From: Methylophilus sp. QUAN
GTDB lineage: Bacteria > Pseudomonadota > Gammaproteobacteria > Burkholderiales > Methylophilaceae
DNA length: 64,000 nucleotides
Reading direction: 5' to 3'
NCBI RefSeq assembly: GCF_015354445.1
Contig: NZ_JADKYT010000001.1
Location: forward strand, 1,240,001-1,304,000
Under the pieces are notes generated by a model that saw nothing but the letters and a program-made list of their open reading frames with translations, made no database searches and had not been told where the DNA came from. Below, in pieces: positions 4,443 through 23,780 of this stretch (position 1 is the first letter of the stretch; each line of letters starts with the position of its first letter). Position numbers and translations under genes: made by a program.

Positions 4443-4949
4443 TTACAGGCCCATGGCTGTTTTTTGAGCGGCCAACAGGTCAACGCCGTTGACGATCTCG
4501 ATCATGTTCACAAAGTCGAGCTCGATGATCGTTTTATTGTTGACCGTCAGCTTGTAATAGGTGCAGGTCATTTTGATTTTAGTCGTTGACTTGTCACCGG
4601 CTTTGGCAGTGCCCCAGTCGATCTCTGAGTAACGGCCGCGATATACAACCTCAACCGCGTCATAGCCGCCAGTGGTCTCATTTTGGTAGGCGCCAGCAAA
4701 GCGAAACATGACGGCATCATGCTTGGTGGCGGCGTACTTTTTCACGGAATCGAGTACAAAGCCGCCCAGGGTGATTTCTGACTCTAATTTTTCGTTACCC
4801 ATATCAATAGGGATAGGGCCAGACATACCGCCTGCGCGCCAGTCTTCGAGCTTGCGGGTGAGTTTTGGCAGGGCGATTTCATCGACCTCACCTTGCCAGC
4901 TCACACCGTCTGCAAAGACATTAAAGTTTTTGAGTACTGAAGGCAGCAT
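4443..4949 (-). CDS. FII: P2 gpFII-like major tail tube protein
   Basis: The 168-residue protein is the tail tube subunit of contractile P2-type tails. The start MLPSVLKNFNVFADGVSWQG and the segment LEDWRAGGMSGPIPIDMGNE are characteristic. It lies 29 bases downstream of the sheath gene FI and presumably shares its promoter. Its length is close to P2 FII. Confidence 0.94.
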   Translation of the reverse strand: MLPSVLKNFNVFADGVSWQGEVDEIALPKLTRKLEDWRAGGMSGPIPIDMGNEKLESEITLGGFVLDSVKKYAATKHDAVMFRFAGAYQNETTGGYDAVEVVYRGRYSEIDWGTAKAGDKSTTKIKMTCTYYKLTVNNKTIIELDFVNMIEIVNGVDLLAAQKTAMGL

Positions 4950-4978
4950 GTTTGCTCTCCTGAATGCTTAATATCGGG

Positions 4979-6148
4979 TTAACCGTTCATACGGGCTGCA
5001 AAGTCAGCCAGGTAACGGTCGGTAATGCGCTGGCGGAACATCATGTTTTCCAGCGGTGGCACAGGGGTGTAGTCGTAGTCGAGATACAACTTGCCAGCCT
5101 TGAGCGTCTCTTTACTGTTGACGGTATCGTCGTACCAGGCAGAGCCATCAATGATGTAGCCCAGGGAGCGCAGCTCACGGAACTTGGCATTAAGACCTTC
5201 AATGATGTCTCGTGCCAGGGATGGGTTAAGCGGCAAATCAACCGCCCACATATGCGCCTCAGCCATGGTGTCCGCCAGCACTTGCGCAGTGCGGGTGTAG
5301 TTTTCAAAGGCAAACAGTGGATCAGCTGAGCAAGTGCGGGATCCCCAAAAGCGGAAGCCATCCTCACGAATGAGGGTAGTGACGTCATTCTCATTGAGGT
5401 ATCCAGCATCGGTAGCAGGGTTTTGCAGGTCCCAAGTGACATCATGGCTAATGCCTTCAACGCCGTTGACTGGGATATTTGATAAGGTTTTATGCCAGCC
5501 AATTTCCTCATCGAGCTTGGCGCGCAGGCCGGCCGCACGTGCAGTTGCCCATAAGGTTTCATACAAGGCAGTTTCAGCGTTAAAGCCTCTAAAGTCTGGC
5601 CACATGACCATGGCCTCACGTGCGCCAAAGTTCTCACGGTAAGTATTGGCCTCTTCTTTGGTATCCGCACCAGCTGCTGACAAGTAAGTAAAGCCGCGCA
5701 AGGCTTGCGCAATAGTGATCAGCTCGTTTGCCACTGGCAGGCTATCCAGACCAGGAGCCACCAGAATGCGTGGCTTAACGCCTAACTGTGTTTTAGCAGC
5801 CAGTAATGATTTAAGCCCGGTGTAAGCGCCGTTTGTGTAAGAGCCAATGACATTGGCGGTGGTCTCGTTCTCAGTGGAACCCTCGGCAACGCGGGTGGCG
5901 ACAATGACCGGGTTGGTTTGGTCGGCAATGGCATCAAACACACGTGCACCGGTGCCCAGCTCGCCCGCCTTGCCCGCCGCTTCACGTACTGAGGTGATCA
6001 GTTTAGGGGTGTTGAGTGGAAAATATGCTGCATCAGCATCGCTGGCCGTGAACGCCAGGCCGATAATGGCCGTTGCAATGGTGCGAATGGGGCGGGTGCC
6101 TTCGTTGATCTCTTCAACGCGGACACCGTGGTGGTAGTCTTGGGCCAT
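4979..6148 (-). CDS. FI: P2 gpFI-like major tail sheath protein
   Basis: The 389-residue protein forms the contractile sheath. The start MAQDYHHGVRVEEINEGTRP, the TAIIGLAFTASDAD segment and the C-terminal RFRQRITDRYLADF-type region (here MMFRQRITDRYLADFAARMN) are typical of P2 FI. Translation starts behind a strong AAAGGAG site. It opens the tail operon FI-FII-E-T-U-D and has the dyad-type late promoter upstream. Confidence 0.95.
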   Translation of the reverse strand: MAQDYHHGVRVEEINEGTRPIRTIATAIIGLAFTASDADAAYFPLNTPKLITSVREAAGKAGELGTGARVFDAIADQTNPVIVATRVAEGSTENETTANVIGSYTNGAYTGLKSLLAAKTQLGVKPRILVAPGLDSLPVANELITIAQALRGFTYLSAAGADTKEEANTYRENFGAREAMVMWPDFRGFNAETALYETLWATARAAGLRAKLDEEIGWHKTLSNIPVNGVEGISHDVTWDLQNPATDAGYLNENDVTTLIREDGFRFWGSRTCSADPLFAFENYTRTAQVLADTMAEAHMWAVDLPLNPSLARDIIEGLNAKFRELRSLGYIIDGSAWYDDTVNSKETLKAGKLYLDYDYTPVPPLENMMFRQRITDRYLADFAARMNG

Positions 6149-6175
6149 GCCGAATCTCCTTTAGTGATGAAAAGG

Positions 6176-6237
6176 ATGGTGGCACAAGTCACTAAAGGAG
6201 GCGGTGTGGGGCGGTTGTATTGGGGTTTGGATACAAC
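6176..6237 (-). promoter_or_regulatory. Putative late promoter PF with 24-bp activator dyad
   Basis: The dyad GTTGTAT-N10-ATACAAC occupies 6214-6237. A CACCAT hexamer at 6181-6176, 47 bp away centre to centre, is the likely -10, which would put the start near 6169, about 20 bases before the FI ATG, and the dyad near -56. P2-family late promoters lack a -35 and use an Ogr-type zinc-finger activator bound near -55 (established). The assignment here rests on the repeated spacing seen at other copies. Confidence 0.75.
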
Positions 6238-6262
6238 TATTCTAATAGTTTTTGAGTGAATG

Positions 6263-6285
6263 AAAAACCCGCCGAAGCGGGCTAA
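6263..6285 (-). terminator. Intrinsic terminator after the cargo operon
   Basis: On the minus strand a GCCCGC-TTCG-GCGGG stem is followed by five T. It lies between the stop of the 570-residue protein and the FI promoter, separating the cargo transcript from the sheath operon. Confidence 0.85.
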
Positions 6286-6297
6286 AAATTGGTTTGC

Positions 6298-8010
6298 TTA
6301 CCTGTGATTAATCAAACCCATTGAAGCATTGTATTTTCGCATTTCATCATACGCACGATCACCATAGTGCAGGTACTGCCCACCGGCAGCAGGGGTATCA
6401 GAGAAGTAATGCTCAGCAAACACGTACATGGGGTTTGTTACAAAGTTGATATTCAAAGTTGTAACGCTGCCATTTAATTGGTTTGCACGAATAGCAGTCG
6501 GGGCATCTTCAGAGTTTCGTTGAATCAAACGCATAGTATCGCCATCAACATGTTGGAATTGACCGCGCAAGATACCCGCGCTCAAACCCATACCTGGAAT
6601 TACAAAATATGCGCCTTCATCCTCAAACGTGAAGGTGTTTGCGCCGGATACATCCATTGTCGTGATGGCCGGGAATGAACCTGTTGCGGCGGCAACTGTA
6701 ATCGTAGCTGTGCCGGTGTTAATTACGCGTGCGCGTGGTGGAATCTTAGGTGCAAGCGTCTGCGGGTGCGCGCAAACTGCGGCTGCCGGGTCAGAAAACC
6801 CGTTCATGCCTTTAACCAAACCCTTACGAATCGCCCCATTAATGATAGCAAGGATTTTCGGGTTTCGATTTGGAGGAGAGTTCGCAAGCGTCGTCATGAA
6901 GTCCGTAGACGTAAAGCTCGGCGTAATAGTGCTTGGGAACCAGCGCTTGATTTTTGGACACTGAGCCTTAATCCAATCGAACTCAGCTTGGTATTCAGCC
7001 AAACACGTTGTTTCACCCTGCCAGTTACTAGACAAAGTTAAAGAGTTGTATCCATAACCATAGTCGACATCGGTACACATTCTTGCCAATTTAGCGCGAC
7101 CAGCAAAGCATTTCTCTTTCTGGCCTACAAATGCAGTTACACCAAAGTTTGATACTGCCTCACCGGCATAACCGAGATTACTTACGCCAACATAGTAAGG
7201 GCCGTACATATTTGAGCCTTCGCCAAACATTGGCTTGTCAGTATGGTCTAGCCATAGACCAGACTCATTTTGACCGCCCTGGCGTTTACTATCACCCATT
7301 GATGCGACCGTGCGTTTAGTTGTTACCGCATAAAGATTATGCAGTCGAATTCCTACATCTTGAGCGGCGTTGGTTGTTGGGAAGTCAGCAACAACATTCG
7401 GAATTGGACTAGCGGTATTGGCCACCCAAGTAACCCACTGCGCATCTGTGATGGGCACTGATGCAAGCATCAAATCCTTACCCTGATTCCCAGCACTAGC
7501 CATCATAAACTGACCAGCCAGGCTGCCGTCAGTGTGGCTGGTTTGTCGAGCGCAAATCTTATACATGAACTCGGTTTCGTCAGGGGCATAAACATTACCT
7601 AAGTCGAACTCCATCGTGCCAATGTCGCCGAAGTATGCGCGCGCAGAGTTTGCTGATAAAGCATTGGCTGTTGCAATGACCTCACCATCAACATCAAGCG
7701 TGTCAACAGGATAGCCGCGATATGCTACGCCTTTGTAAATCAGCGTAACATACCAGTCTGCAAACCCATTCGTAGCTTGTGATAGGCCTTGCACAACCTC
7801 ACCGACACCAGTAATCATCGCCAGGGTGCCCCTGAATTTATTGCCACCAGTTTCGGAGACAACTGAGTGTTGGCCAAAGACTACGGGACGCCCACCCATT
7901 GACTTGAGCAATGCGCTTGTTGCTGTGCATGGCCCCCAATACGGTTTTGTCACATCACTTTCAGTTGATACATTTTTAAACTGATTGAAAGGAGAATTAA
8001 ACATGCTCAT
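6298..8010 (-). CDS. Phage cargo protein with SGNH-hydrolase-like motifs
   Basis: The 570-residue protein is not a standard P2 late protein. SGNH/GDSL esterase blocks can be picked out in order: VASMGDSKRQG (Ser about 241), NLGYAGEA (block II Gly), GYNSL (about 320-324, in place of GxND) and GQYLHYGDRAYDEM with Asp about 538 and His about 548. A stretch rich in beta-type sequence (about 425-530) appears inserted before the last block. The N-terminal ~230 residues are unassigned and could bind the virion. No signal peptide is seen. It follows the 95-residue gene by a few bases, shares its own late-type promoter and ends at an intrinsic terminator. Its place between fibre genes and sheath is where P2 carries non-essential genes (Z/fun). 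A virion-borne deacylase of surface glycans is my preferred reading; the function is not proven. Confidence 0.5.
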   Translation of the reverse strand: MSMFNSPFNQFKNVSTESDVTKPYWGPCTATSALLKSMGGRPVVFGQHSVVSETGGNKFRGTLAMITGVGEVVQGLSQATNGFADWYVTLIYKGVAYRGYPVDTLDVDGEVIATANALSANSARAYFGDIGTMEFDLGNVYAPDETEFMYKICARQTSHTDGSLAGQFMMASAGNQGKDLMLASVPITDAQWVTWVANTASPIPNVVADFPTTNAAQDVGIRLHNLYAVTTKRTVASMGDSKRQGGQNESGLWLDHTDKPMFGEGSNMYGPYYVGVSNLGYAGEAVSNFGVTAFVGQKEKCFAGRAKLARMCTDVDYGYGYNSLTLSSNWQGETTCLAEYQAEFDWIKAQCPKIKRWFPSTITPSFTSTDFMTTLANSPPNRNPKILAIINGAIRKGLVKGMNGFSDPAAAVCAHPQTLAPKIPPRARVINTGTATITVAAATGSFPAITTMDVSGANTFTFEDEGAYFVIPGMGLSAGILRGQFQHVDGDTMRLIQRNSEDAPTAIRANQLNGSVTTLNINFVTNPMYVFAEHYFSDTPAAGGQYLHYGDRAYDEMRKYNASMGLINHR

Positions 8011-8012
8011 GA

Positions 8013-8300
8013 TTACTCCTTGTACGCTTTTGCAGTTGCGCGGCGGGACTGAGGGACGATTTTATATACCGTTCCAGGCATATATGGCGTGACTTTGACA
8101 AGCGTATTGGCGTTATGAATCACTGCACTGACTTTGTCTATCCCAGCTGATGAACACAAGTAAAATTTGCTCGTTCCTGGTAGCTTTGCAGCGAGGGCGA
8201 TTTGCCCGTGATCAACGGTGACATAAAAGTCATCTGTGGGGGTAAATTCACCACTGGCGGCGACTGCATTATTAATTGATGCAAGTTCTGTGACGGCCAT
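8013..8300 (-). CDS. Hypothetical phage protein, 95 aa
   Basis: I do not recognise this protein. The start at 8300 (MAVTELASINNAVAASGEF) is chosen for its AAGGAG site; a longer reading to 8345 would run through the promoter. It lacks membrane segments or a signal peptide and looks like a small beta-rich domain (DFYVTVDHGQIALAAKLPG). It is the first gene behind a late-type promoter and ends two bases before the 570-residue gene, so the two are likely made together late in infection. It may be a decoration, chaperone or anchoring partner of that protein. Confidence 0.65.
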   Translation of the reverse strand: MAVTELASINNAVAASGEFTPTDDFYVTVDHGQIALAAKLPGTSKFYLCSSAGIDKVSAVIHNANTLVKVTPYMPGTVYKIVPQSRRATAKAYKE

Positions 8301-8327
8301 AACAACGCTCCTTATTTGATTTAGTGG

Positions 8328-8389
8328 ATTGTGGCACCAGTCCAATAGGGGCGTTGTTATACGCCGTTGTATTTAATAATGAATACAAC
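8328..8389 (-). promoter_or_regulatory. Putative late promoter of the cargo operon with 24-bp dyad
   Basis: The dyad GTTGTAT-N10-ATACAAC is at 8366-8389 and a CACAAT hexamer at 8333-8328. The 47-bp centre distance and the shared block GTGCCAC-ATCC around the hexamer are the same as at the FI promoter. The predicted start is near 8321, about 20 bases before the 95-residue gene. The far edge touches the last bases of the methyltransferase gene. Confidence 0.75.
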
Positions 8390-9216
8390 TATTTCAATAT
8401 TGATGTCAATGGATAGTTTGATACCAGTAACTCAGTGACTGCCTTTGTTTCTTTGCTGGAGATGCTGTATTTTGTTTTGACCTCCCGGATCTCATAGCCT
8501 GCAAATAATGCTCTTATCTCTGGCACGTTGTTGATGCTTACCAGCCATTTGGCTTTTGTTGTTGCCAGCGTGTCTCGCAGGTTCATGAAGTCATCTTTAC
8601 TAAAAATGCCCTTGCCGTAGTCGTTTTCGCAATCCCAATAGGGCGGGTCAACATAAAAGAACACTTCATCGCCATCGTAGCGTTTAATCAACTGCTCATA
8701 GTTGAGGTTTTCAATGGTGACACGTGCCAGCCGTAAGTGTGTCTCGCTGAGTTCCTCTTCCAGCCTGGTGAAATTTAAGCGGGGTTTGGTTGAGTTTGAA
8801 ACGCCAAAGCTCTGCCCCACAACTTTTGCGCCAAAGGCATTGCGGACCAGGTAGTAGAAGCGGGCAGCGCGCTGGATATCGGTTAAAGTGTCATCAGCCA
8901 CTCGCTGCAGCCGGTCCCATTCATCACGGGCAATCAGCATCCATTTAAAATAGCGGACAAATTCCTCCAGGTGATTTTGTATCACGCGATAAAGCGTGAC
9001 CAGGTCACCATTGATATCGTTGATGACCTCGACGTGGCTTGGCTCTTTTCTAAACAATACCCAGGCAGCCCCGGCAAATACTTCGGCATAACATTTGTGT
9101 GGTGGAATCAGCGGGATAATGGTGCTGGTGAGCTTTGACTTGCCGCCCACCCAGCCGAGAGGAGATTTTCTAGTGTGTTTACTGAACATATTGAGTGCCT
9201 TATTAAAGGCGCTCAT
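8389..9216 (-). CDS. Phage D12-class DNA adenine (N6) methyltransferase
   Basis: The protein has the D12/Dam-type layout: AdoMet-binding LGWVGGKSKL near residues 20-29, EVFAGAAWVLF near 45-55, and catalytic DPPYW at about 190-194. It would transfer a methyl group from AdoMet to adenine N6, perhaps at GATC or a related site, and so could protect phage DNA from restriction. No partner nuclease is next to it, so it is an orphan enzyme. The start is uncertain: ATG at 9216 has no Shine-Dalgarno, whereas ATG at 9189 (MFSKHTRKSPLGW) has AAGG at good distance. It follows a Com-like gene by 19 bases, the arrangement of Mu com-mom, where Com controls translation of the modification gene. Confidence 0.88.
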   Translation of the reverse strand: MSAFNKALNMFSKHTRKSPLGWVGGKSKLTSTIIPLIPPHKCYAEVFAGAAWVLFRKEPSHVEVINDINGDLVTLYRVIQNHLEEFVRYFKWMLIARDEWDRLQRVADDTLTDIQRAARFYYLVRNAFGAKVVGQSFGVSNSTKPRLNFTRLEEELSETHLRLARVTIENLNYEQLIKRYDGDEVFFYVDPPYWDCENDYGKGIFSKDDFMNLRDTLATTKAKWLVSINNVPEIRALFAGYEIREVKTKYSISSKETKAVTELLVSNYPLTSILK

Positions 9217-9235
9217 GACGCTCGTGGGTGATTAA

Positions 9236-9379
9236 TTATTTTTGCGGTGCATTTTCGACCTGGTTGATTTCCCCGCAGCGGGGACACTTGATACTCAGGC
9301 TTATTGCCACACCTTCAGCTAATTTCTTGTTGCAATGAGTACAGCGAATATCGTGTTTTTTTTCCTTTGTGTTGGTCAT
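9236..9379 (-). CDS. com: Com-like zinc-finger translational regulator
   Basis: A 47-residue protein starts at the ATG at 9379 (MTNTKEKKHDIRCTHCNKKL) and has four cysteines as CTHC and CPRC (residues 13-16 and 32-35). The layout IRCTHCNK...IKCPRCGE is that of phage Mu Com, a zinc-binding protein that binds mRNA and allows translation of the DNA-modification gene mom (established for Mu). Here the next gene is an adenine methyltransferase with no ribosome site at its first ATG, which suits the same control. The leader upstream is highly structured. Confidence 0.85.
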   Translation of the reverse strand: MTNTKEKKHDIRCTHCNKKLAEGVAISLSIKCPRCGEINQVENAPQK

Positions 9380-9498: not shown

Positions 9499-9915
9499 TT
9501 AAGGGTTAAAACCTCCTAAAATTTCGTGAGGCCTTTCTGCAGATAGTAGTCCTGCTGTAACCAGAGAGTTCAAACCTTCTATTGTTCTTTGATCTGTAAG
9601 GTCTACAAAACTAGCTGCGAGCATTTTGTCGTACCAAAGTTTAACCTCTGAGTTACTCATGGTCGCTGAGACAACATTTAATTGTTCAACTTGTGTAAAT
9701 TTCTCAAGAAATTCTAGCGGGGTATAAACTCCTAAACCATTGGTTGGACTCTGTGGCACAGCAACTGGATGATTATTCTCATCAGGTTCAATAACACTTC
9801 CTGATGCTTGAAGGTTGATTAATTCATTGTGATAGTCATCTGATATCTCAACTCCACCATTATCATCATGTTGAAAGAGATAACGACCAAATTCTTGTTG
9901 AAAAAGTGCAAACAT
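9499..9915 (-). CDS. Tail fibre assembly protein-like (gpG position)
   Basis: The 138-residue protein begins with a Caudo_TAP-like part (VEISDDYHNELINLQASGS, then a DENNHPVAVP motif near residues 44-53). It ends with a separate helical domain (PLEFLEKFTQVEQLNV ... LVTAGLLSAERPHEIL) found in proteins encoded behind phage fibre genes. In P2 the gene after fibre gene H is G, the fibre assembly chaperone, and this gene has that position, 10 bases after the fibre gene. Function is inferred from position and the N-terminal part. Confidence 0.65.
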   Translation of the reverse strand: MFALFQQEFGRYLFQHDDNGGVEISDDYHNELINLQASGSVIEPDENNHPVAVPQSPTNGLGVYTPLEFLEKFTQVEQLNVVSATMSNSEVKLWYDKMLAASFVDLTDQRTIEGLNSLVTAGLLSAERPHEILGGFNP

Positions 9916-9925
9916 AAATATTCCC

Positions 9926-10984
9926 TTAATCTAATATTGCTCGATAGTGAACTACTGCACTTGCAACTGAGCAGTGGCCATTGAATCCAGATCCACTGGG
10001 AGTATCAAACCATGCAGAAATTGAAGTTGTTCCGGTTGATAGAGGGGTTAACTGCAGATTTCGTAAGTTACTAGCACCAAGTGGGAAGGTCACGATACTT
10101 GGTGCACCAGGTGTAGCAGAGGAAACAAATGTTCCATTAACCTCAATCCGACCACTTGGTAATCTTTGCCAACCATTATTTGCAAGCTGAGCGCCAAATA
10201 ATTGCGGCATATATTTCAACGCACCGGGGCAGTTCTCAAGTGTCCAACCTATTGAAATTCTTCTAAATGTTAGGAAGTCAATGTTTGCGCTTACAACAGA
10301 GCCATTACTATTATCAGGGCGAATAATTACATCGGAACCTGCTGCAGAAATTGTTACCCCAAATCCATTTGGATTAAAGTAACAAAGAGCGCCGTTAGGA
10401 ATGCCTGAAGCTGGCGGTAGAGTTAAGGTGATACCTGCTGCTGTTGTTGTAAATATATAGCCAACGGCATCCGCTGTTAATGATAAGTTTCCTGATGCAA
10501 TTACTTGACCTCTTAGGTTTCCAAGCGCTCTTTGAACAAATTCAGTTGTTGCTATTTCAGTATCGGATGCGAACTGAGGTGGTGTTGGGGCTTTGGGTGT
10601 TCCCGTAAATATTGGTGAATTCTTCGGAGCCTTAGCATCTAATAAAGACAGAATTGTTGCAGAAAAATTGGGATCATCGCCCAAAGCTGCAGCAAGTTCG
10701 TTCAGTGTGTCGAGTGCAGCCGGAGAGGAGTCAACCAGCTCAGAAATTGCATTGCCAATGCGTGAATCAATCGCAGTTAATAGTTGCGTGGTCTCGTTGT
10801 CTACAACGGTTACACTTTCTGCAGTGCACACCTCTGACAGCATTAACCGTAACCAGTTTGTACGCGCCGCCAGTTGCTTGCCTGGTAGATTATCCAGGCC
10901 GTCTTCGCCGCCTTCGACCACATCATCAGTTTCAAATCTGTAAACCTCTGTAGACCAGTTATTACTTTCTGTCACGCCAGCCAT
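9926..10984 (-). CDS. Phage tail fibre protein (gpH position)
   Basis: The 352-residue protein starts with a P2 gpH-like virion-binding segment (TDDVVEGGEDGLDNLPGKQL, then a LDTLNELAAALGDDPNF motif near residues 88-104). It has a phage fibre repeat (TPPQFASDTEIATTEFVQRA) near 134-153 and a C-terminal gp53-like domain (GAQLANNGWQRLPSGRIEVN ... AVVHYRAILD) that would recognise the host. It is much shorter than P2 gpH, so the fibre should be short. The gene looks more A+T-rich than its neighbours, as is common for swapped host-range genes. It follows I by nine bases. Confidence 0.88.
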   Translation of the reverse strand: MAGVTESNNWSTEVYRFETDDVVEGGEDGLDNLPGKQLAARTNWLRLMLSEVCTAESVTVVDNETTQLLTAIDSRIGNAISELVDSSPAALDTLNELAAALGDDPNFSATILSLLDAKAPKNSPIFTGTPKAPTPPQFASDTEIATTEFVQRALGNLRGQVIASGNLSLTADAVGYIFTTTAAGITLTLPPASGIPNGALCYFNPNGFGVTISAAGSDVIIRPDNSNGSVVSANIDFLTFRRISIGWTLENCPGALKYMPQLFGAQLANNGWQRLPSGRIEVNGTFVSSATPGAPSIVTFPLGASNLRNLQLTPLSTGTTSISAWFDTPSGSGFNGHCSVASAVVHYRAILD

Positions 10985-19976: not shown

Positions 19977-20076
19977 AGTCTGTAGAGTTGGCTTTTATTG
20001 TTCAATCTGGTGCGGTTGTATCGGTTATTGAATACAACTGGCGTAAATGCAGAGTGGTTTTATGCGCGGGTACATT
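19977..20076. promoter_or_regulatory. Divergent late promoters PO/PP with one shared 24-bp dyad
   Basis: The dyad GTTGTAT-N10-ATACAAC occupies 20015-20038. On the plus strand TACATT (20071-20076) and on the minus strand CAGACT (19982-19977) both lie 47 bp from the dyad centre and fit as weak -10 hexamers. A single activator site could therefore drive P-Q and O-N-M-L in opposite directions. Assignment is inferred from the conserved spacing. Confidence 0.7.
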
Positions 20077-23696: not shown

Positions 23697-23704
23697 ATTC
23701 TATT

Positions 23705-23780
23705 TGGCTCCTCAACCTGGGCTCGAACCAGGGACCTACGGATTAACAGTCCGGCGCTCTACCGACTGAGCTATTGAGGA
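23705..23780 (-). tRNA. tRNA-Asn (anticodon GTT)
   Basis: A 76-base cloverleaf includes the encoded CCA. The acceptor arms are TCCTCAA and TTGAGGA, the D-arm region is AGCTCAGTCGGTAGAGC, the anticodon stem-loop CGGACTGTTAATCCG gives GTT, and the T-arm is GGTTCGAGCCC. Its 3' end faces the prophage, a common integration target for tyrosine integrases. Confidence 0.97.

Follow-up and report, generated by a model that had tools for sequence, protein, structure and literature searches.

A P2-like prophage of Methylophilus sp. QUAN carries, between a D12-class methyltransferase gene and the tail sheath gene, a pair of accessory genes whose products have 95 and 570 amino acids (aa). The pair lies in a 64,000-nucleotide (nt) stretch of contig NZ_JADKYT010000001.1 (positions 1,240,001 to 1,304,000, forward strand), which we refer to as the window. 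On sequence grounds, the 570-aa protein belongs to the phage SGNH esterase family phrog_8480, from whose other members it diverges strongly, and the pair is preceded by a copy of the prophage's late promoter; the gene pair, the copied promoter and the family membership are all well supported. The reading we favor, with somewhat better than even confidence, is that the 570-aa protein is made late, is probably associated with the virion, and is a surface-polysaccharide esterase of a known family, which would use a Ser-His dyad if it is active at all. An apparent orphan gene is thus tied to a phage esterase family, and the position of a P2-like accessory pair behind a copied late promoter predicts a role in the particle or at lysis, not in the lysogen. 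The private late promoter is the unusual feature of the pair; the family of the 570-aa protein is already known.

When the full 570-aa sequence is the query, the protein resembles an orphan, with no match in Pfam, PHROGs, NCBIfam, PADLOC, PDB sequences, or phage and plasmid records, and none by peptide pattern in viral and genome contigs. Among 187 genomes of the bacterial family there is the gene itself and one weak, short match (L002, E = 0.009), which was taken as chance because it is antisense to a long open reading frame (ORF) with a GGDEF motif. Among 399 genomes of the order there are the gene itself and two such matches (L004, E = 0.002; L005, E = 0.008), which have one and three stops, respectively, inside the match and were likewise set aside. 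Orphan status was overturned by a search with residues 230-425 alone, which match phrog_8480 (lysophospholipase L1-like esterase) with E = 2.6e-8 (1.3e-8 in the search of the protein's own genome). The same core residues match no phage record at E values up to 10, no Pfam family and no PDB sequence. The family is present in 18 of the 399 order genomes, including this one, and 18 of the 20 other phrog_8480 matches were aligned and show the GDS motif, the Asn and the late His (L093 and L101 were left out because the ORFs chosen for them lack GDS).

Phage relatives were reached through one of the phrog_8480 matches (17 phage records) and through gp22 of Rhizobium phage RHph_Y25 (37 records). A hidden Markov model built from 12 phage proteins (13 rows, with gp22 split and the window protein excluded) aligns to residues 233-413 with 57.6 bits. 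A DNA-pattern scan of viral contigs brought the family to at least 100 distinct ORFs, some of them incomplete, and at least 115 domain rows. The tree contains 75 rows including the window protein, filtered by core score and motif from 100 listed ORFs, some of which hold two modules, and gives no reliable placement of the 570-aa protein. Its best pairwise match among those listed is L153 (36.7 bits). Named members of the family include RHph_Y25 gp22, Mesorhizobium Lo5R7ANS gp62, Shewanella QDWS gp18, and proteins of Gordonia and Arthrobacter phages. The window protein shares with them the SGNH core, with its GDS, GxN and late His, and a setting among structural, tail or lysis genes; it differs in lacking the Asp of the DxxH motif, in the length of its branch, and in being encoded in a P2-like prophage, downstream of a late promoter of its own. 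We found no open-access paper on SGNH proteins of P2-like prophages or on phage lysophospholipase L1-like esterases.

The catalytic blocks were compared in an alignment of 40 rows (39 chosen viral-contig rows plus the window protein). Gly239, Ser241 and His548 are invariant in all 40 rows, and Asp240, Gly320 and Asn322 are nearly so, which covers block I (G239-D240-S241), block III (G320-Y321-N322) and block V, where His548 aligns with the His of the 39 other rows in three MAFFT modes and in A2. For block II, Gly283, in the sequence YAGEA, aligns with a Gly in many but not all rows. The initial annotation had described an ordered series of SGNH motifs ending in a late Asp and His, with a Ser-His-Asp arrangement as the expected center. 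The series stands as far as GDS, GYN and His548 are concerned, but the late Asp is not at the DxxH position, which is occupied by Gln545 in a gapped part of the alignment, and the Ser-His-Asp arrangement is therefore not supported as it was put. The Asp of DxxH is usual, not universal, in SGNH triads. In the family, the position three residues before the His (H-3) is Asp in 76 of the 83 listed rows with an aligned His, the others being Gly (three), Ser (two), Phe and Arg (one each). Asp539 lies nine residues before His548 and could stand in as the acid only if a loop brings it near.

The three rows with Gly at H-3 are L153 and the first modules of RHph_Y25 gp22 and L116, and all three have GTS in place of GDS. 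RHph_Y25 gp22 (L113:6704-9121) consists of two tandem SGNH modules, the first with GTS and without the Asp, and the second with GDS and DGTH; it is possibly a binding module joined to an enzyme.

The fold was modeled with AlphaFold2 using the 40-row alignment, which raised the mean predicted local distance difference test score (pLDDT) to 55, with a predicted template modeling score of 0.63, from a pLDDT of 30 without an alignment. Of the 18 ten-residue blocks of residues 231-410, 14 have pLDDT values of 71-92 and the rest 48-69. The helix after His548 reaches 80, but the block that holds His548 only 54; residues 1-228 are mostly below 50, and the insertion is at 35-62. In the model, the core has the alpha/beta SGNH fold. 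Foldseek matches in the PDB are mostly SGNH esterases, a peptidoglycan O-acetylesterase among them, and VIA-align gives Z scores of 17.6 over 330 residues for the carbohydrate esterase PbeAcXE and 17.1 for a polyvinyl alcohol esterase, values to be read with caution because the N-terminal part included in the alignment is largely modeled with low confidence. Matches to viral models are SGNH proteins and the tail spike of phage PP99 (Foldseek E = 5e-4). The predicted fold thus bears out what had been proposed from the motifs, as does the beta-rich inserted region, which is found before block V at the same site as an insertion in five phage relatives (AbbyDaisy, L136, L161, L165 and L187). In L165 and AbbyDaisy the insertion overlaps a match to phrog_32881, labeled pectin lyase activity. 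The window insertion is only weakly similar in sequence to those of the relatives (best score 14.8 bits, to L161).

Both ORFs were found where a two-gene cargo unit had been described, and the promoter dyad and terminator proposed for the unit are also present (Table 1). The 95-aa length is counted from an ATG; the mechanical ORF call begins at a TTG and gives 110 aa. An AAGGAG at the 3' end of the 95-aa gene, directly before the ATG of the 570-aa gene, would place the ribosome-binding site of the second gene within the last codons of the first, which suggests that translation of the two is coupled. The dyad GTTGTAT-N10-ATACAAC was searched for in the window and the 34 kb to its left (98 kb in all), and has exactly three exact matches, compared with approximately 0.0003 expected from base composition. 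They lie before the sheath gene, between the capsid scaffold and terminase genes, and before the gene pair, and the prophage has a gene for an Ogr-type activator. When up to three mismatches are allowed there is no clear excess (five matches, a number reached by 8 of 100 shuffles), so that the promoter claim rests on the exact copies. For both the sheath and the cargo genes the distance from dyad to ATG is 65 nt, and the 100 nt before the two ATGs are identical at 61 positions without gaps (5000 random pairs, 25 ± 4.5, maximum 41), from which we conclude that the cargo promoter is a copy. A methyltransferase 3' remnant before the sheath dyad was considered as a footprint of the duplication and rejected as not significant, since 11% of random pairs reach its local score and 3% its anchored score. 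Both leaders also contain an element, GTGCCACCATCC / GTGCCACAATCC (window 6174-6185 and 8326-8337, minus strand), which has a counterpart, TGTGCCACCATCG, in the sheath leader of relative L015, and which looks like the left half of the relatives' N12 dyads.

Sheath promoters were compared in relatives fetched with the sheath protein (at least 83, made up of at least 80 viral contigs and three genomes), with 75 distinct windows. A TTGT-N9..12-ACAA dyad occurs 31-131 nt before the sheath gene in 51 of the 83 listed (47 of the 75 distinct windows); among 4019 random windows, 17 have one. All 51 have N12 spacing, and eight more have N13, for a total of 59 of 83. The dyad of our prophage, TGT-N14-ACA, is placed where these 59 have theirs. 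The late-promoter consensus of P2, whose activator is Ogr, is TGT-N12-ACA (PMC3931495), and since the listed relatives with a dyad have N12 or N13 and none has N14, the longer spacing would be this prophage's own variant. N14 dyads elsewhere, in 9 viral and 15 genome stretches, were taken as chance; those stretches have no match to 21 prophage proteins.

From these features we infer the following course of events. After induction, the Ogr-type activator would act at the cargo dyad, and the 95-aa and 570-aa genes would be transcribed along with the capsid and sheath operons; their transcript would end at the hairpin between the pair and the sheath promoter. By hydropathy the 570-aa protein has no signal peptide or hydrophobic N-terminus, so it would stay in the cytoplasm until assembly or lysis, when it would be built into the tail or fiber region or released. 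It would then remove ester groups, probably O-acetyl, from the host's surface polysaccharide, by means of Ser241 and His548, while Asn322 would sit in the oxyanion hole. With the acid residue missing, catalysis would depend on the Ser-His dyad and might be slow, or the protein would mainly bind.

The setting of the relatives points in the same direction. In phages of Rhizobium, Mesorhizobium, Shewanella, Gordonia and Arthrobacter the family gene has structural, tail or lysis genes as neighbors, and several of its products carry the annotation minor tail protein. It follows the major tail protein gene in Bibwit and Rabbitrun, and lies among minor tail protein genes in JuJu, Crater and TripleJ. 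In RHph_X2_26 it stands between the capsid and portal genes; in Lo5R7ANS and X3_9 terminase genes are close by, and in RHph_Y25 a lysozyme gene is. Upstream of it in L153 are a baseplate-wedge gene, one unscanned gene and two fiber-type genes, and in L204 a baseplate assembly gene is nearby. Among loci L113-L252, proteins of this prophage have relatives only in L204 (V) and L219 (FI, FII), and thus in none of them was the family gene seen within a plainly P2-like prophage. A virion or host-surface role, which had been preferred over that of a lysogenic gene from the outset, is the likeliest on this evidence, and within it the likeliest course seems to be that the protein acts on surface polysaccharide as a virion part. 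In other phages, tail proteins that have an SGNH domain and target surface polysaccharide have been linked to host specificity, and two SGNH-domain receptor-binding proteins of Klebsiella prophages are reported as confirmed esterases (PMC13123978). The PP99 tail spike gp55 deacetylates O-polysaccharide (PMC6989608), and it and gp63.1 of coliphage G7C (as given in PMC13123978) are SGNH-fold tail spikes for which deacetylase action has been shown. PP99 gp55 resembles the 570-aa protein in fold and in the expected target, surface polysaccharide; the 570-aa protein differs from both spikes in being known from its sequence and encoded by an accessory gene beside a separate tail fiber.

The 95-aa partner, unrecognized at the start, has no match in Pfam, PHROGs, other family libraries or phage records, and only itself in the 187 family genomes. 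It also has no hydrophobic N-terminus or membrane stretch by hydropathy. A 60-140-aa ORF stands directly upstream of 30 of the 83 listed family genes with upstream DNA (mechanical ORF calls, with no null expectation). To judge from its position, the 95-aa protein is most likely an anchor or assembly partner of the 570-aa protein. A bolder proposal, which we put forward only tentatively, is that the pair, with its copied promoter and its terminator, forms a self-contained late accessory cassette of the virion, adding a second glycan-modifying or glycan-binding part (a Ser-His dyad enzyme or a lectin) beside the tail fiber, with the 95-aa protein as a new kind of anchor.

Several observations weigh against a late-made virion esterase. 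On the promoter side, none of the 83 listed relatives has N14 spacing, which is two bases longer than in the P2 consensus; an N9-13 dyad was not seen before the sheath gene in 24 of them, among them L011 and also L009 and L010, the two of the same bacterial family whose sheath is nearest, neither of which has a recognizable dyad; and the relatives cannot be counted as independent of one another. No resemblance was found between the 95-aa protein and the small proteins encoded next to other family members. In the 570-aa protein, the N-terminal part, the insertion and the His548 block are modeled with low confidence. Three further points would fit a loss of catalysis, namely Gln545 at the position of the Asp, the GTS of the best pairwise match, L153, and a branch that is the longest of the 75 in the tree (2.41, versus a median of 0.51).

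These last points leave a real chance, as far as the sequence goes, that the 570-aa protein binds and does not cut, so that it would be an SGNH-fold lectin of the tail, binding surface glycan. The triad Asp is missing not only here but in L153 and in the GTS-bearing first modules mentioned above, an esterase center of one CE2 enzyme is also used for non-catalytic binding (PMC2661963), and in a CE20 enzyme an Asp-to-Gln change lowered kcat from 9.70 to 0.18 per second, an approximately fifty-fold drop that nearly abolished activity (PMC12313940). We nevertheless regard a pure lectin as unlikely, because GDS with Ser241, Asn322 and His548 are all retained despite strong divergence, and because Ser-His dyad esterases are known. 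The carbohydrate esterases CtCE2 and CjCE2B work in this way, and 14 of 26 CE2 members are given as lacking the Asp (PMC2661963). The CE2 and CE20 enzymes have a beta-sandwich beside an SGNH-type catalytic domain, and the CE2 dyad enzymes lack the Asp as the 570-aa protein does; they differ in being cellular enzymes, with no sequence similarity to it shown. The 570-aa protein is a natural case for asking whether esters are still cut by an SGNH protein that lacks the usual Asp.

A protein that is released at or after lysis and never enters the particle, for example to de-esterify capsule or peptidoglycan and let progeny escape from debris, would fit the late promoter and the lack of an export signal, and it agrees with the peptidoglycan O-acetylesterase among the fold matches and with the relatives near lysozyme or endolysin genes. 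Such an effector seems distinctly improbable, since the phage already encodes a muramidase and two holins away from the pair, and several relatives are annotated as tail proteins. The virion-associated esterase remains the reading that we prefer.

The site of the pair, between the fiber assembly and sheath genes, is an accessory slot. The genes had been called foreign to the P2 core, which is right, with the qualification that relatives also carry accessory genes at this site. Of ten slot proteins of relatives compared with Pfam, five could be named (a resolvase, an acyltransferase, a TIR-domain protein, a C5 methyltransferase and a Transposase_31 protein), whereas L018, L038, L041, L057 and L089 had no match. 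Relatives of the window methyltransferase occupy the slot in L009 and L015. A TIR-domain gene (L030:4372-5307) and an acyltransferase gene (L077:4266-5438) in the slot of other P2-like phages are on the strand opposite to the sheath gene. In P2 itself, Z/fun is listed between FI and G, and the P2-like phage KS5 has a methylase in this slot (PMC3091744); the defense hotspot of P2 is a different place, between gpA and gpQ (PMC9122126). The slot of our prophage resembles Z/fun in holding accessory genes between fiber assembly and sheath, and differs in that its accessory pair carries a late promoter copy. In 36 of the 83 listed loci there are 61 slot ORFs on the sheath strand, none of which has such a dyad of its own; here the slot was taken as running from the sheath to the first fiber, assembly or baseplate gene (mechanical calls; 9 of the 61 have less than 100 nt upstream, and clusters 10 and 13 may be fiber-region genes). 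A role in lysogenic conversion or superinfection exclusion, which other slot genes may have (TIR-domain gene, acyltransferase, methyltransferases, resolvases), is very improbable for the pair, given its late promoter copy, the chance level of sigma-70-like sites in 4900-9300 (4, versus 5.8 in shuffles) and the lack of a hydrophobic N-terminus.

Table 1. Features of the gene pair and of the surrounding prophage (window coordinates unless another sequence is named)
Feature	Position	Strand	Basis or remark
570-aa gene	6298-8010	-	ORF
570-aa protein parts	N-terminal region ~1-228; SGNH core ~231-415 plus 548-564; beta-rich insertion ~425-540 (residues)		
95-aa gene	8013-8300	-	ORF counted from its ATG
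Late-promoter dyad of cargo pair, GTTGTAT-N10-ATACAAC	8366-8389	-	exact; one base common with methyltransferase stop codon
Late-promoter dyad of sheath operon, P_F equivalent	6214-6237	-	exact
Dyad between scaffold gene O (-) and terminase gene P (+), P_O/P_P equivalent	20015-20038	.	exact
Cargo leader, related to sheath leader (GTGCCAC, AAGGAG)	8301-8365	-	0.36% of random pairs reach its local alignment score
Intrinsic terminator after 570-aa gene	6266-6283	-	hairpin -11.8 kcal/mol, z -2.77; equaled in 3 of 200 shuffles
Tail sheath FI	4979-6148	-	Pfam and PHROG
D12-class N6-adenine methyltransferase, accessory gene in same slot	8389-9216	-	Pfam PF02086, E 4.1e-32
Probable fiber-assembly gene, upstream of slot	9499-9915	-	phrog_25252 (unknown), E 1.2e-7; phrog_188 fiber assembly, E 1.8e-5
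Tail fiber, upstream of slot	9926-10984	-	phrog_4209 tail fiber, E 3.9e-57
Ogr-type zinc-finger activator gene, left of window	G000:C1:1237082-1237333 = L006:15082-15333		Ogr_Delta PF04606, E 3.8e-16
52-nt attachment repeat inside tRNA-Asn	23702-23753 and L006:4643-4694		left copy beside integrase gene, left of window

The prophage as a whole is bounded by the 52-nt direct repeat, which lies in the tRNA-Asn gene and recurs beside the integrase gene, giving a span of approximately 37 kb. Its gene set includes scaffold, small and large terminase, portal, sheath, tape-measure, hub, muramidase and holin. A 616-aa protein in the left part of the prophage (L006:7831-9681, minus strand) has a C5-cytosine methyltransferase domain (E = 2.7e-17) and, in mid-protein, a repeated VADPR motif that was spotted by eye. 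Just outside the left attachment repeat is a helix-turn-helix and HipA-like gene pair (L006:2967-4545, plus strand, equivalent to G000:C1:1224967-1226545; Pfam HipA_C, E = 4.3e-48).

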